Shown: positions 29,859-35,043 of the stretch, piece after piece
Layout: each line of letters starts with the position of its first letter
Position numbering within the stretch: the first letter of the stretch is position 1
NCBI GenBank assembly: GCA_022823775.1
Contig: JAJEHI010000036.1
Span: forward strand, 1 to 53,413
Reading direction: 5' to 3'
Length of the DNA: 53,413 bases
Source of the DNA: Defluviicoccus sp.
GTDB lineage: Bacteria > Pseudomonadota > Alphaproteobacteria > MPNO01
The notes under the pieces: model-generated
The model's input: the letters and a program-made list of their open reading frames with translations, nothing else
The model's database searches: none
What the model was told of the DNA's origin: nothing
Made by a program: the position numbers and the translations under genes

Positions 29859-30662
29859 ATGCTGACGCTGTACCACCAGGGAAGCTCGGTTTGCGCGGCC
29901 AAGGTGCGGATCGTGCTCCATGAGAAGCGGGCGGAGTGGACGGGCGAGATCGTGGACGTGCTGAGGGGCGAGCAGTTTCAGGACTGGTATCTGGCGCTCA
30001 ACCCCAACGCGGTCGTGCCCACCTTGGTCGACGACGGCCGGCCGATCGTCGAATCGACGGTGATCTGCGAGTATCTCGACGACATCCTGCCCGCCCCGCC
30101 GCTCAGATCCGCCGACGCCTACGACCTGGCCGCGATGCGTATCTGGACCAAGCGGATCGACGAGCGGCTGCACCCGATGACCAGCGTGCTGACCTATTCG
30201 GCCTCGCACCGGCACACCATCCTCGACAACAACACGCCGGAGCAGGTCGAGGCGATCATCGAGGAGACCCGCGACCCGGTGAAGCGCCAGCGCAAGCGCG
30301 AATGGATCGAGCTCGGGATCGAAGCGCCCAGCGCGCGCGCCGCCGTCGCGGAGTTCGAGAAGACGCTGGCCGACATGGAAGCAGCTCTCTCGCGCACCCC
30401 GTGGCTCGCCGGCGACGCCTATTCTCTCGCCGATGTCGGCATGACGCCCTACGTCAACCGGTTGTCGATGATGGGTATGGAAGGCTTCTGGAACGGCCGG
30501 CCCAACGTCGAGGGCTGGTTCGCGCGGGTGCGCGACCGCGCGAGCTTCCTGCCCGCACTGATCGACGCGGTTCCCGACGATCTGACCGCTTCGCTCGCCA
30601 CCTACGGCGCCCGGAGCTGGCCCAGGGTCGAGGAGATGCTGGAGACCCTTCGCGCGGACTGA
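29859..30662 (+). CDS. Glutathione S-transferase, LigF-like
   Basis: A 267-residue GST. The N-terminal domain reads LYHQGSSVCAAKVRIVLHEK, NPNAVVPTLV with the cis-proline, and IVESTVICEYLDD, which closely parallels the VESTVICEYLED motif of the lignin beta-etherase LigF. The C-terminal domain contains RIWTKRIDERLHP and SLADVGMTPYVNRL. LigF-type enzymes cleave beta-aryl ether bonds using glutathione. Actual ether cleavage is inferred only from this motif and the neighbouring Rieske gene. GGGGAGGGG stands before the ATG. Confidence 0.87.
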   Translation: MLTLYHQGSSVCAAKVRIVLHEKRAEWTGEIVDVLRGEQFQDWYLALNPNAVVPTLVDDGRPIVESTVICEYLDDILPAPPLRSADAYDLAAMRIWTKRIDERLHPMTSVLTYSASHRHTILDNNTPEQVEAIIEETRDPVKRQRKREWIELGIEAPSARAAVAEFEKTLADMEAALSRTPWLAGDAYSLADVGMTPYVNRLSMMGMEGFWNGRPNVEGWFARVRDRASFLPALIDAVPDDLTASLATYGARSWPRVEEMLETLRAD

Positions 30663-30673
30663 ACGGCCCCGCC

Positions 30674-31783
30674 CTATGGCGAGCCGCGAAAGGCGTCGAT
30701 TCCGAGTTCGGCGCGCAGATCCGCGGTCCCGGCTTCCTTGGCGGGCTCCAGCGGAATCCCCGTCGCGTCGGCGACACGATCCAGCGCCGAATAATTGGCT
30801 ATGACCGCGGCCGCGTCGACGAGCGCGGCGTCGCCCAGGGCATTCCGCAGGCGTTTCCGGACATCGGTCAGCGGCGTCCCGTCGTCGGCCAGCGTCGCCT
30901 CGGCGAAAGCCTTCAGCAGGCTGCCATGCGGGATGCCGCCGTCTCCCGCTTCCTCGTCGACGATGGCGTTGAGATCGACCGCGTCTCCCGTTGCTCTGGC
31001 GCTCGCACGGAGCATCTCGGCATGGGTGACGGTTCAGTAGAAGCACCCGTTAACGGCGGAAACGCGTCCCGCGATCAGCTCCATCTGGGCGCGGTCGATG
31101 GCCCGGTGCCGGCCCGCGACATCCGCGATCAGCCGCCCCGGGAGATATTGCGCGTCGACCATGTCGAACAGCCCCGACGCCTCGCGGGGAACCAGGCTGA
31201 GCGCGCGCCGGACGAACGTGGGGTCCGGCGAGACATAGACGTTGTCGAGGCACGCTTCCGCCGCCGTCCGGTCTTCCGGCGCCAGCATGGGTACCCAGGC
31301 CGTTCCGGACTTCGCGCCCGCCGGCCGCGCCCTCGAAGGTTCGCCCGGTTCGGGTTCGGGCAAGGGGTGCGGGGCGACACCGATCGCGCGGCAGAACATG
31401 TCGACCGCGATCGTCGTCGCCGTTACGCCGACGGTCTCGACGAACTCGGCATCGCCGATACCGCTTTGCCGCGCGCGTTCGAACCAGGCGTGGGTCAGAC
31501 GGCCGGGGTCCGTGGCGACCCGGTGAACGACCTCCACGAGGTTTTCGGGCAGATCGGTCGCCGCCCGGTGGGATCCCTCCACGGCATACGGGGACAGCGC
31601 GGCCTTGCATTCCGCGCAATAAGCGCAGTCCCGGGCCGCTCTCGTCTCGGCGGCGATCGCGAGGCGGCGCTCCGCCCGGAACCATGTGCCGGCCCGCGCA
31701 AGCCTCAGCCATGCGCGCTCGTGGGCGGCGGCCAGATCCTCGCGGACGACGACGTCCGCGGCGTCGTAGGAGAGCAGGCCCAT
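30674..31783 (-). CDS. Two-domain AhpD-like selenoprotein with in-frame TGA (CxxU)
   Basis: Reading through one TGA at 31034-31036 (codon 250) gives 369 residues with two AhpD/CMD-like helical domains. Domain 1 has Cys53-AY-Cys56-AE-Cys59 but Lys60 where His is expected, and no Glu twelve residues earlier. Domain 2 has Glu235, Cys247-FY-[TGA250] and His254; the spacing equals Glu118, Cys130, Cys133 and His137 of mycobacterial AhpD, so TGA stands for the second catalytic cysteine. The frame stays open for 119 codons after it and is rich in helical sequence. ATG 31783 was chosen; earlier in-frame starts run into the divergent TauD gene. Predicted role: selenol-based peroxide or disulphide reduction. 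A nonsense mutation in a pseudogene is the alternative. Confidence 0.8.
30992..31014 (-). promoter_or_regulatory. Candidate bacterial SECIS element
   Basis: Beginning 20 nt after the TGA, the message can fold as GCUC-CGUGC-GAGC (closing U.G pair below), a 5-nt loop with G at position 2, starting 24 nt past the TGA. An alternative uses UGCUC with GAGCA and a 13-nt loop starting CG. Both place a G in the first two loop positions, within the distance range known for SelB-dependent hairpins. The stem is short and was found by eye only. Confidence 0.5.
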
Positions 31784-31865: not shown

Positions 31866-32723
31866 ATGACTGTCGAGATCGTTCCGCTGTCGCCCGACAT
31901 GGGCGCCGAAATCCGGGGCGTGGACCTTTCGCGCCCGCTCGATTCCGCGGTCGCATCCGTCCTGCGCACGGCCTGGCTGGATTACGTGGTGCTGGTCTTT
32001 CGCGGCCAGACGCTCGACGACGAAGCGCTCAGGCGGAGCGCCGACTGGCTGGGCGAACCGTCGGATATCTCGATGCCGGTCGACCGGCGCGGAGACGACG
32101 ATGCCTCGATCGCGTTGATCTCGAACATCCGCGATGAGACCGGGAATCCCATCGGGGCGCTCGGCGACGGCGACATGTGGTTCCACCACGACAACAGCTT
32201 CACCGCGGCGCCCGACAAGGCGACGTGGCTCTACGCCGTCGAGCTGCCCGGAAGCGGCGGGAACACCCTGTTCGGCAACTGCTACCGCGCCTACGAGGCG
32301 CTGCCCGAGCGGCTGCGCCGGTCGCTGGCCGGAAGAAAGGTTCTTCAGGTCTACGACTACACGCTCAAGGAGCGGCCCGACATCGCGGACCTCGACGGGG
32401 TCCCGCATTTCTGGCAGCCGGCGGTGATCGTCCATCCGGCGACGCGGAAGAAGGCGCTCTATGTCGACCGGCTGATGACCGCGGCTGTCGAAGGCTACGG
32501 GCGGGCGGAGAGCGAAGCGCTGATCGAGGAGGTCTGCGCCCATGTCGAGCGGGTCGACTACGAGCATGTCTGGCGGGCGGGCGACTATGTGATCTGGGAC
32601 AACCGCTGCTCGGTGCATGCGCGCACCGATTTTCCCGCCGACCGGCGCCGCCTGCTGAAACGCGGCAAGGTCGGGGGCGAGCCGCTGCTGGCGGACGTTC
32701 CGCCGTCGCGGGACGCTCACTGA
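31866..32723 (+). CDS. TauD/TfdA family 2-oxoglutarate dioxygenase
   Basis: A 285-residue Fe(II)/2OG dioxygenase. VEIVPLSPDMGAEIRGVDLSRPL is the family N-terminus. The iron triad is His107-x-Asp109 (WFHHDNSF) and His251 (SVHARTDF), with the 2OG-binding arginines in DRRRLLKRGK. Family members oxidise taurine, sulphonates, phenoxyacetates or carnitine-like compounds; this one cannot be placed more precisely. ATG 31866 (Met13 of the longer open frame) matches the family start. Its stop overlaps the convergent LLM gene by 7 bp. Confidence 0.9.
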   Translation: MTVEIVPLSPDMGAEIRGVDLSRPLDSAVASVLRTAWLDYVVLVFRGQTLDDEALRRSADWLGEPSDISMPVDRRGDDDASIALISNIRDETGNPIGALGDGDMWFHHDNSFTAAPDKATWLYAVELPGSGGNTLFGNCYRAYEALPERLRRSLAGRKVLQVYDYTLKERPDIADLDGVPHFWQPAVIVHPATRKKALYVDRLMTAAVEGYGRAESEALIEEVCAHVERVDYEHVWRAGDYVIWDNRCSVHARTDFPADRRRLLKRGKVGGEPLLADVPPSRDAH

Positions 32724-33724
32724 TCGGCGCGGATCGCCGGCAGGACGCGCTCCCCGAAGAGCTCCACCGTCCCCGCCGGGTCCGACGCGACGCTGACGGT
32801 GAACATGACACGCTTCAGCCCCGCCGCCCTGGCGGCGCGCAGTTGATCGAGGCATTGCTCCGGGGTGCCGTAAATCGCGAAGCGTCCCGCCAGGTAATCG
32901 AACAGCCCGAGCTCGTCGACCAGCCGCGCATCGGCCTCTCCCGGCCGGGTGCTGTAGCGCCTGCGCAGCTCCCGGACCGGCTCGTGGTATTCCGCCGGCA
33001 CTCCGCGCTCCGCGAGATCGTCGCCCGAGAGAATGTAGCCGCCCGCCATGAAGGCCAGGATCGCGCCCGCCCGCCGCCTCGCGGCGTCGCCGTCCCGGTT
33101 GCAGTCGAGGCTGGCGATCTGCCACGTCTCGACCGCGCCCGCGCCGCGTCCGCTATCCCGCGCGCCTTCGGCGACCAGGGCTTCGGAGTAGCGGAGATTG
33201 TCCGGGGCTATGCCGAAATTGACGAAGGCGCCGTCGGCGATCCTGCCCGCCAGTCCGAGGGTCCTCCGGCCTGAAGCGGCCAGGAAGACGCGTACGCCGC
33301 CGCGCGCCCAGGGAATATGGGCTTCCGCGCCGCCGAGCGATGCCGGCTCTCCGGACGTCAGCGTCTTTACGAAGCGTATCCCGTCGTCGAGCCCGGCCAG
33401 ATCGGAGCTGGGCAATCCCAGATTCCGCGTACCGCTGTGTCCCGCGCCCAGCCCCAGCACGACGCGGTCCGGGGCAAGCAGCTCCAGCGACGAGACGGCG
33501 GCGGCCGAAACCGCCGGATGGCGCGACGACAGGTTGGTGACGCAGAGAGCTATCCGCGCCTTCCGCACGTCGCGGGCGACGATCGTGGCGGCGACCCACG
33601 GGTCCATCGCGTTGCCCGGCGTATCGGCGATGCCGATCGCGTCATAGCCCCAACGGTCGGCGGCTTCCGCCATCCGCCCGGTCAGCTCGGGCGTGTAGGG
33701 CCAGAAGAAGAATCCGATCTCCAT
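32717..33724 (-). CDS. LLM class flavin-dependent oxidoreductase
   Basis: A 335-residue luciferase-like monooxygenase fold protein (TIM barrel). Landmarks include RMAEAADRWGYDAIGIADTPGN, LAPDRVVLGLGAGHSGTRNLG, VRVFLAASGRRTLGLAGRIADGAFVNFG and the C-terminal FAIYGTPEQCLDQLRAARAAGLKRVMF. The pattern is close to F420- or FMN-dependent reductases of the Mer/NrdH-like LLM group; cofactor choice is not decided by sequence alone. ATG 33724 has GAGGACC upstream. It is monocistronic and convergent with the TauD gene. Confidence 0.87.
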   Translation of the reverse strand: MEIGFFFWPYTPELTGRMAEAADRWGYDAIGIADTPGNAMDPWVAATIVARDVRKARIALCVTNLSSRHPAVSAAAVSSLELLAPDRVVLGLGAGHSGTRNLGLPSSDLAGLDDGIRFVKTLTSGEPASLGGAEAHIPWARGGVRVFLAASGRRTLGLAGRIADGAFVNFGIAPDNLRYSEALVAEGARDSGRGAGAVETWQIASLDCNRDGDAARRRAGAILAFMAGGYILSGDDLAERGVPAEYHEPVRELRRRYSTRPGEADARLVDELGLFDYLAGRFAIYGTPEQCLDQLRAARAAGLKRVMFTVSVASDPAGTVELFGERVLPAIRADQ

Positions 33725-34025
33725 CTTCGGGGTCCTCGATCGGTGGAGGGTCCGGAAAGCCCGCCCGGCCCGAAGCTTGTCGTCGCTCCTCGGTTCGCGC
33801 GGGCCCTGGACCCATCCTACCATTCCACGGGTTCCGGCCGCGCGGCGCACCCGAATTGCCCTTGGCTTTTGACGCCAAAGACTGCACGATCCAAGAGCAA
33901 GTGACCGGATGCGAGCGGCAAATTCAGGCCAAGTAACGGATCGTCGACAGGGGTATCCAGGCTTAACGATTACATGATGCCCGGGAACGTGTTTTCGAAG
34001 TGGGCCGGTTAAGGACAAGAAGACG
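33725..34025. other. Intergenic region upstream of LLM and STAS genes
   Basis: A 301-bp divergent spacer without a supported gene. It contains a short hairpin CTTGGC / GCCAAG (about 33861-33879). GGAAC (33984-33988) followed 17 nt later by CGGTT resembles the EcfG-type extracytoplasmic sigma promoter (GGAAC-N16/17-CGTT), 16 nt before the STAS start codon. Confidence 0.4.
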
Positions 34026-34491: not shown

Positions 34492-35043
34492 ATGGCGTAC
34501 ACACTCGAACGATTTTGCGAAGACTGCCGGACGGCGCTGGACGCCGATGACGGCGATGGCGGGCGCGAGGCGGTGCGCGCCAATCTGGGACGGCTGCTGG
34601 CCAACGAGGACTTCGTCGCCGCCCATTGCGGACCGGACGCGGAACGCGGCGTCCACCGGCTCTACGAGGATCCCGATCTCGGCTTCGTGGTGCTGGCCCA
34701 TATCTACGAAAAGGGCGTCGAATCCCCGCCGCACGATCACGGCCCGTCCTGGGCGATCTACGGTCAGGCGGTCGAGCACACCGACATGACGGTATGGCGG
34801 GAAACCGGCGTGGCGCCGGGCGGGTCCGAGCCCATCGTGGAACCGGCGGAGCGCTACCGGCTCGATCCCGGCATGGTCGGCGTCTTCCATCCGAACGACG
34901 TCCACTCGATCGCGTTCCCCGACGGGGCGCGCTTCGTCCGGGTGACCGGCACCGATCTCGACAAGGTGGTTCAGCGCCGCTTCAACCTCAGGGAAAACAC
35001 CGTCGACGGCGACAGGCCGGTGCCGGCTCCGGCCGACGCCTGA
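34492..35043 (+). CDS. Cupin-type metal-binding protein (cysteine dioxygenase-like fold)
   Basis: A 183-residue protein. Central PPHDHGPSWAIYGQAVEHTDM contains the HxH-like metal motif and the following Glu/His of a small cupin barrel, and HPNDVHSIAFPDG supplies the later His ligand. The helical N-terminus (LERFCEDCRTALDADDG) resembles COG5553-type double-stranded beta-helix proteins related to cysteine dioxygenase. It may be a thiol or small-molecule dioxygenase. CGGGAGA precedes the ATG. It lies 25 bp upstream of an MBL gene on the same strand. Confidence 0.75.
   Translation: MAYTLERFCEDCRTALDADDGDGGREAVRANLGRLLANEDFVAAHCGPDAERGVHRLYEDPDLGFVVLAHIYEKGVESPPHDHGPSWAIYGQAVEHTDMTVWRETGVAPGGSEPIVEPAERYRLDPGMVGVFHPNDVHSIAFPDGARFVRVTGTDLDKVVQRRFNLRENTVDGDRPVPAPADA

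Follow-up and report, generated by a model that had tools for sequence, protein, structure and literature searches.

Does an in-frame TGA that is the only interruption of a long reading frame end the gene, or is it read as selenocysteine (Sec), and what would the Sec-containing protein do? These questions are raised by a minus-strand frame at 30674–31783 of contig JAJEHI010000036.1 from Defluviicoccus sp. (GenBank assembly GCA_022823775.1), whose whole analysed stretch of 53,413 nucleotides is hereafter called the window. The frame comprises 369 codons with its sole TGA at codon 250 (31034–31036), preceded by the residues VNGCFY and followed by TVTHAEML; 119 codons lie downstream. An earlier note, made from the DNA letters, had read this locus as a two-domain AhpD-like selenoprotein with a CxxU active site, in a duplicated form not known to have been described. 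Translation confirms the single frame with its lone TGA and reproduces Glu235, Cys247, His254, the flanks and the downstream codons. The selenoprotein part of that reading is upheld by sel genes, Cys-containing homologues and a downstream hairpin, whereas the novelty of the duplicated form is not: the gene is a further member of an already named family, NF041238. The start ATG was assigned from relatives, many database homologues being 249 amino acids (aa) long, which is exactly the portion from ATG to TGA. No promoter match was found for the gene, an Rfam scan across the window gave nothing at gathering score, and a tRNA scan of the window found none, tRNA-Sec being located on another contig.

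The TGA at codon 250

In our judgement, the TGA at 31034–31036 is almost certainly a real Sec codon, and Sec insertion is predicted at residue 250. Among 113 fetched loci, a reading based on a hidden Markov model (HMM) recovered 94 distinct family genes including the window gene, and one further row ends short of the Sec column; the HMM search was used in place of a motif search that had missed 28 of the 113 loci. The TGA is conserved beyond chance, because all 94 genes carry it at that column. A second stop is found within the alignment in 12 of them, always in the last four residues, where it is the terminal stop. In the order, 50 rows over the cut-off were obtained from 22 of 27 genomes, and by hand count 48 hold the TGA, the other two being fragments that stop before the Sec site (profile positions 1–234 and 1–148). 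Further stops in relatives, which the earlier note had named as a sign against its reading, are confined among the order rows over the cut-off to a TAA in a fragment from genome G015, which is counted among the 48; a fragment below the cut-off in G024 has TGA and TAG. In a class sample, all 52 matches, found in 27 of 385 genomes, have exactly one TGA; scoring was limited to five candidates per genome, which makes the copy numbers of this sample lower bounds. In a phylum sample, the family was found at E ≤ 1e-30 in one of 398 genomes, which is the Defluviicoccus genome itself, and no DNA of a Cys form was obtained as a control for the hairpin described below.

Alignment of homologues at codon 250, proposed in the earlier note, reveals that Cys forms do exist: among 219 database proteins listed, 13 homologues are full-length, with Cys at the Sec site in 12 and Val in one. 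The latter (P0122) has the motif CFYVT and is named ‘alkylhydroperoxidase-related (seleno)protein’. Most of the short homologues among the 219 (204 of 206) end at C-x-Y/F directly before the Sec codon, and therefore the catalytic third of the family is lost from the records. NF041238 genes are thus easily overlooked by ordinary annotation. Furthermore, in ten pairs among five orthologues of the genus, dN/dS is 0.17–0.44 after the TGA and 0.15–0.29 before it; by this measure, selection downstream of the TGA is purifying and that part behaves as translated protein.

The earlier note had made its reading depend on selA, selB, selC (tRNA-Sec) and selD, and all four are present in the same assembly (198 contigs, completeness 100, contamination 4.75): tRNA-Sec with the anticodon TCA (75 bits), selA (572 bits), selB (457 bits) and selD (311 bits), all on contigs other than that of the window. 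All of the 27 class genomes with the family belong to the 56 of 385 that have selA, and 29 selA-bearing genomes show no family member. As a side observation, selD of the Defluviicoccus genome (L034:2625-4919, contig C195) encodes a 764-aa fusion with a pyridine nucleotide-disulphide oxidoreductase domain (Pyr_redox_2 + AIRS); relatives of this fusion are convergent to an NF041238 gene in L112, L113, L119 and L154.

Downstream of the TGA, a predicted apical hairpin of a selenocysteine insertion sequence (SECIS) is located at 31000–31014 on the minus strand, with the stem GCUC/GAGC (31010–31013 paired with 31001–31004) and the loop CGUGC (31005–31009). In the minimum-energy fold, the distance from the UGA is 20 nt to the beginning of the stem and 24 nt to the loop. 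The bacterial SECIS model quoted in a 2026 review has a loop of 3–9 nt with G within its first two positions, a stem of 4–16 bp, a distance of 16–37 nt from the UGA and a minimum free energy (MFE) of −7.5 or lower (PMC13188914). Scoring of the hairpin, proposed in the earlier note, was made by hand comparison with this model, and all four features fit (loop CGUGC, stem of 4–5 bp, 24 nt, 60-nt MFE of −19 kcal/mol). The 60-nt energy is no better than that of shuffles (z −0.56), and thermodynamic stability was dropped as evidence for a SECIS. Codon-level conservation is the stronger evidence. A codon table was made from 43 genes of the motif search (16 duplicates of 59 rows removed) with 95 conserved degenerate columns, and the most codon-biased positions besides the TGA are Arg259, Leu258 and Ser261. 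Indeed, Arg259 is CGT in 40 of the 43 genes, against 10% of Arg codons being CGT, and Leu258 is CTC in all 43. Across the 94 family genes, the loop sequence N-G-[U/G] is invariant, and four stem pairs are formed in 79 and three of the four in 15; one gene has Ser (AGT) in place of Arg and retains the loop G-U.

These results bear on two other explanations. The TGA might be a genuine stop, or the gene might be decaying, with a functional N-terminal product of 249 residues, as would agree with gene-caller products, mostly 245–263 aa, ending at the TGA; however, purifying selection after the TGA, frames open to the end in all 94 genes apart from the Sec-site TGA, Cys at the site in nearly all full-length homologues, complete Sec machinery and a hairpin conserved at synonymous codons make this highly improbable. 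Decoding of the TGA in this organism by other recoding, e.g., as Trp or Cys, has nothing in its favor except the open frame and is the most improbable of all, because a tRNA-Sec with anticodon TCA is present, a paralogue (L023) has TGA as its own terminal stop, and the alignment puts Cys rather than Trp at this site.

Family membership and domain architecture

The product of 30674–31783 matches NF041238 (AhpD_rel_CFYUT) with 469.2 bits (cut-off 175) over residues 13–366 and profile positions 1–356 of 357, and the family motif C-x-Y-U-T is present as CFY-TGA-T. This equivalog, ‘alkylhydroperoxidase-related (seleno)protein’, and the window gene share the full length, the CFYUT motif and the Sec position without essential difference, and the Defluviicoccus genome carries five copies. 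The family is listed in the 2026 review as an AhpD-related CxxU selenoprotein, ‘hypothetical protein 1’ of the Sargasso Sea metagenome (PMC13188914), which was reported in 2005 from four sequences with a CxxU motif and a predicted SECIS and was given a possible redox role and nothing more (PMC1088965). Because of the profile match, the review listing and the Sargasso Sea protein, the family is not new, and a reading of the window gene as a novel family was rejected; the duplicated AhpD form that the earlier note took to be undescribed is this same family. AhpD-like 1 and AhpD-like 2 of the GOS survey are CxxU AhpD-like selenoproteins, filed there under COG2128 and pfam02627 (PMC2398784). In a collection of open-access papers, the terms NF041238, CFYUT and ‘alkylhydroperoxidase-related’ were found only in the 2026 review, the name ‘AhpD_rel_CFYUT’ was not found, and a search for Defluviicoccus with selenocysteine turned up only a sponge microbiome paper. 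The available passages of PMC13188914 and PMC1088965 hold no description of the fold, duplication or gene neighbours of the family.

Among more general profiles, PF02627 (carboxymuconolactone decarboxylase, CMD) is passed by the C-terminal half only (residues 226–270, 26.6 bits, gathering cut-off 23), while the window protein scores below the cut-offs of TIGR00777 (AhpD; 22.2 bits against 191.95) and TIGR01926 (peroxidase-related enzyme; 56.4 against 81.8). The C-terminal domain (residues 184–345; 30749–31234, minus strand), assigned from the PF02627 match and the predicted structure, is an AhpD domain with the active-site residues Glu235, Cys247, Tyr249, Sec250 and His254 (31022–31081, minus strand). 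In the window protein, Glu is 15 residues and Cys three residues before Sec, His is four residues after it, and Tyr immediately precedes it; Glu, Cys, TGA and His are found in 95 of 96 alignment rows, the remaining row being gapped. The same logic of Glu, Cys, Cys and His is seen in Mycobacterium tuberculosis AhpD (TIGR00777; 1knc, 1gu9), whose residues we take to be Glu118, Cys130, Cys133 and His137, following the earlier note. That chain has 177 aa against 369 in the window protein, where Sec takes the place of the second Cys. Equal spacing is also found in Ralstonia eutropha YP_296737.1 (Glu74, Cys86, Tyr88, Cys89, His93; PMC4674687) and in 2prr. The TIGR01926 enzymes and their kin (6k40, 2prr, 2oyo, 3c1l) share the fold of the C-terminal domain, but they are chains under 200 aa with CxxC, and the window protein falls below the TIGR01926 cut-off.

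The N-terminal domain (residues 1–146; 31346–31783, minus strand) is predicted to be a decayed AhpD domain that keeps CxxC and lacks Glu and His, as judged from its hhalign alignment with the C-terminal domain and from a separate model that matches AhpD-like chains first. For the protein as a whole, a fusion of two AhpD-fold domains is predicted, the N-terminal one decayed. Of the 91 rows ungapped at position 53, 79 have both Cys53 and Cys56 (31616–31627, minus strand). The earlier note had given the motif of this domain as CxxCxxC, and this longer form was rejected, the third Cys (59) being found in six of 96 rows.

The predicted fold of the window protein matches human Sestrin2 (5t0n, 5dj4, 5cuf) above any single-domain AhpD, and the model has two fused AhpD-fold domains in a sestrin-like arrangement. 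In Sestrin2, the N-terminal domain is catalytic (Cys125, Tyr127, His132) and the C-terminal domain is without those residues (PMC4674687). The window protein is the opposite: its C-terminal domain bears Glu, Cys, Sec and His, and its N-terminal domain has only CxxC, with Cys53 and Tyr55 in it but Lys60 in the place of His. Identity between the two proteins is about 12%; no sestrin family is among the Pfam matches and no sestrin chain among the PDB sequence matches listed up to E 10, filters dropping weak matches in both searches. In a collection of open-access papers, none was found that joins sestrins with at least two of selenoproteins, alkylhydroperoxidases and bacterial homologues, and none that joins them with at least three of prokaryotes, alkylhydroperoxidases, two-domain proteins and evolutionary origin. 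With its duplicated domain and predicted sestrin-like fold, this family without known function gains a testable chemistry and would serve as a simple model in bacteria for fused AhpD proteins.

Candidate chemistry and redox partners

With the TGA read as Sec, the Cys247-x-x-Sec250 pair of this NF041238 member would likely reduce organic hydroperoxides or oxidized peroxiredoxins as putative substrates, and the protein is best explained as an AhpD-type reductase working through a selenol; peroxide or peroxiredoxin chemistry as such is, in our judgement, on balance probable. Sec250 occupies the second-cysteine place of the AhpD motif and would be activated by a Glu235/His254 relay to attack the peroxide or the disulfide of a partner. 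Cys247 would then resolve Sec250 as a Cys–Sec bond, which may be reduced by a thiol partner such as thioredoxin, glutathione or a lipoyl protein. The CxxC of the N-terminal domain may shuttle electrons or stabilize the fold.

Candidate redox partners are found beside other copies of the family. In three class genomes, which represent two genera (G117; G148 and G251), the NF041238 gene directly follows, in the same orientation, a peroxiredoxin-like gene that itself contains an in-frame TGA (GHWUPYC), and selD- and selA-like genes are located on the opposite side; the peroxiredoxin-like gene of G251 is assigned to Pfam AhpC-TSA. The three peroxiredoxin-like genes (L126:3290-4078, L131:1496-2278(-) and L132:1514-2302(-)) have a hydrophobic N-terminus by eye.

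A narrower form of this favored explanation is that the Sec protein serves as an AhpD-type adaptor, a disulfide reductase for peroxiredoxin only, and would itself show little peroxidase activity. The arrangement just described agrees with such a role, as does the reduction of AhpC by M. tuberculosis AhpD. In two of the three genomes, a further small gene follows immediately downstream, and in one of them it is redoxin-like by a match below the cut-off. But the pair is known from those three genomes of two genera, and the loci of the five Defluviicoccus copies are without it, so that we regard the adaptor role as unlikely to be the whole of the function. Somewhat less probable still is that the same selenoprotein acts on another substrate, its Cys–Sec pair serving, in the manner of the debrominase Bmp8, to reduce or dehalogenate a small molecule of aromatic or xenobiotic type. 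The match to Bmp8 reflects a shared fold only, whereas Glu235, Cys247 and His254 are kept across the alignment as in AhpD-type peroxidases, and redox partners (the TGA-containing peroxiredoxin-like genes, thioredoxin reductase and sel genes) recur beside other copies.

Beyond hydroperoxide or peroxiredoxin reduction, the family might be a bacterial Sec-powered counterpart of sestrins: a fused AhpD pseudo-dimer with a catalytic C-terminal half and an N-terminal half decayed to a CxxC relay, which together with the TGA-containing peroxiredoxin beside sel genes would form an all-selenium peroxide system of AhpC/AhpD type, and whose old paralogues, five in the Defluviicoccus group, would be specialized by substrate or partner. 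This is a tentative proposal of ours.

Gene neighbourhoods and copies

The window gene is flanked by a convergent glutathione S-transferase-like (GST) gene (29859–30662, plus strand) and a divergent TauD/TfdA dioxygenase gene (31866–32723, plus strand), which are found in two and three of four orthologous loci of the same genus, respectively. A luciferase-like (LLM) flavin oxidoreductase gene (32717–33757, minus strand) is found in all four, and in G005 it is directly upstream of the NF041238 gene on the same strand. Genes for a Rieske oxygenase (two of the four genus loci) and a metallo-beta-lactamase-fold protein are also near the window copy. At 34492–35043 (plus strand), a 183-aa protein, present in two of the four loci, resembles cysteine dioxygenase/cupin proteins by eye, with no Pfam match at E 0.001.

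The other four copies of the Defluviicoccus genome are 41–52% identical to the window copy, and each of the five has one TGA. The C45 copy neighbours a ring-hydroxylating Rieske gene, an AsnC regulator and thioredoxin reductase; the C192 copy adjoins an EamA transporter, the C98 copy dnaK, and the C52 copy a TRAP-type transporter and an amidohydrolase. None of the five is on the contigs of selA or selD. In the class sample, a copy is found within 4.6 kb of selA in seven of the 27 genomes, and in an eighth a copy and an Ndh-SelD-like gene are separated by about 60 bp (L154). Flanks were read for a subset of the class copies, most of which have nearest genes that are unrelated to redox or lack an identification.

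Four genomes of the same genus also have five NF041238 loci each. That five diverged copies per genome have each kept the TGA suggests that selenium brings these bacteria real benefit. A tree of 93 rows built with FastTree places C45 and C52 among genes from other families, with support of 0.997 and 1.0, respectively; C192 is so placed with lower support (0.844). Clades restricted to the genus (1.0) contain the window copy and the C98 copy. Because some copies group with genes of other families, the duplications are in part old. One of the genus loci (G002:C47:79100-81200; L072) is matched in two adjacent pieces in one frame with overlapping profile positions (1–148 and 132–355), as if an internal repeat or insertion were present. 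In another genome (G322:C9; L139 and L162), two NF041238 genes form a tandem pair with TGA in both.
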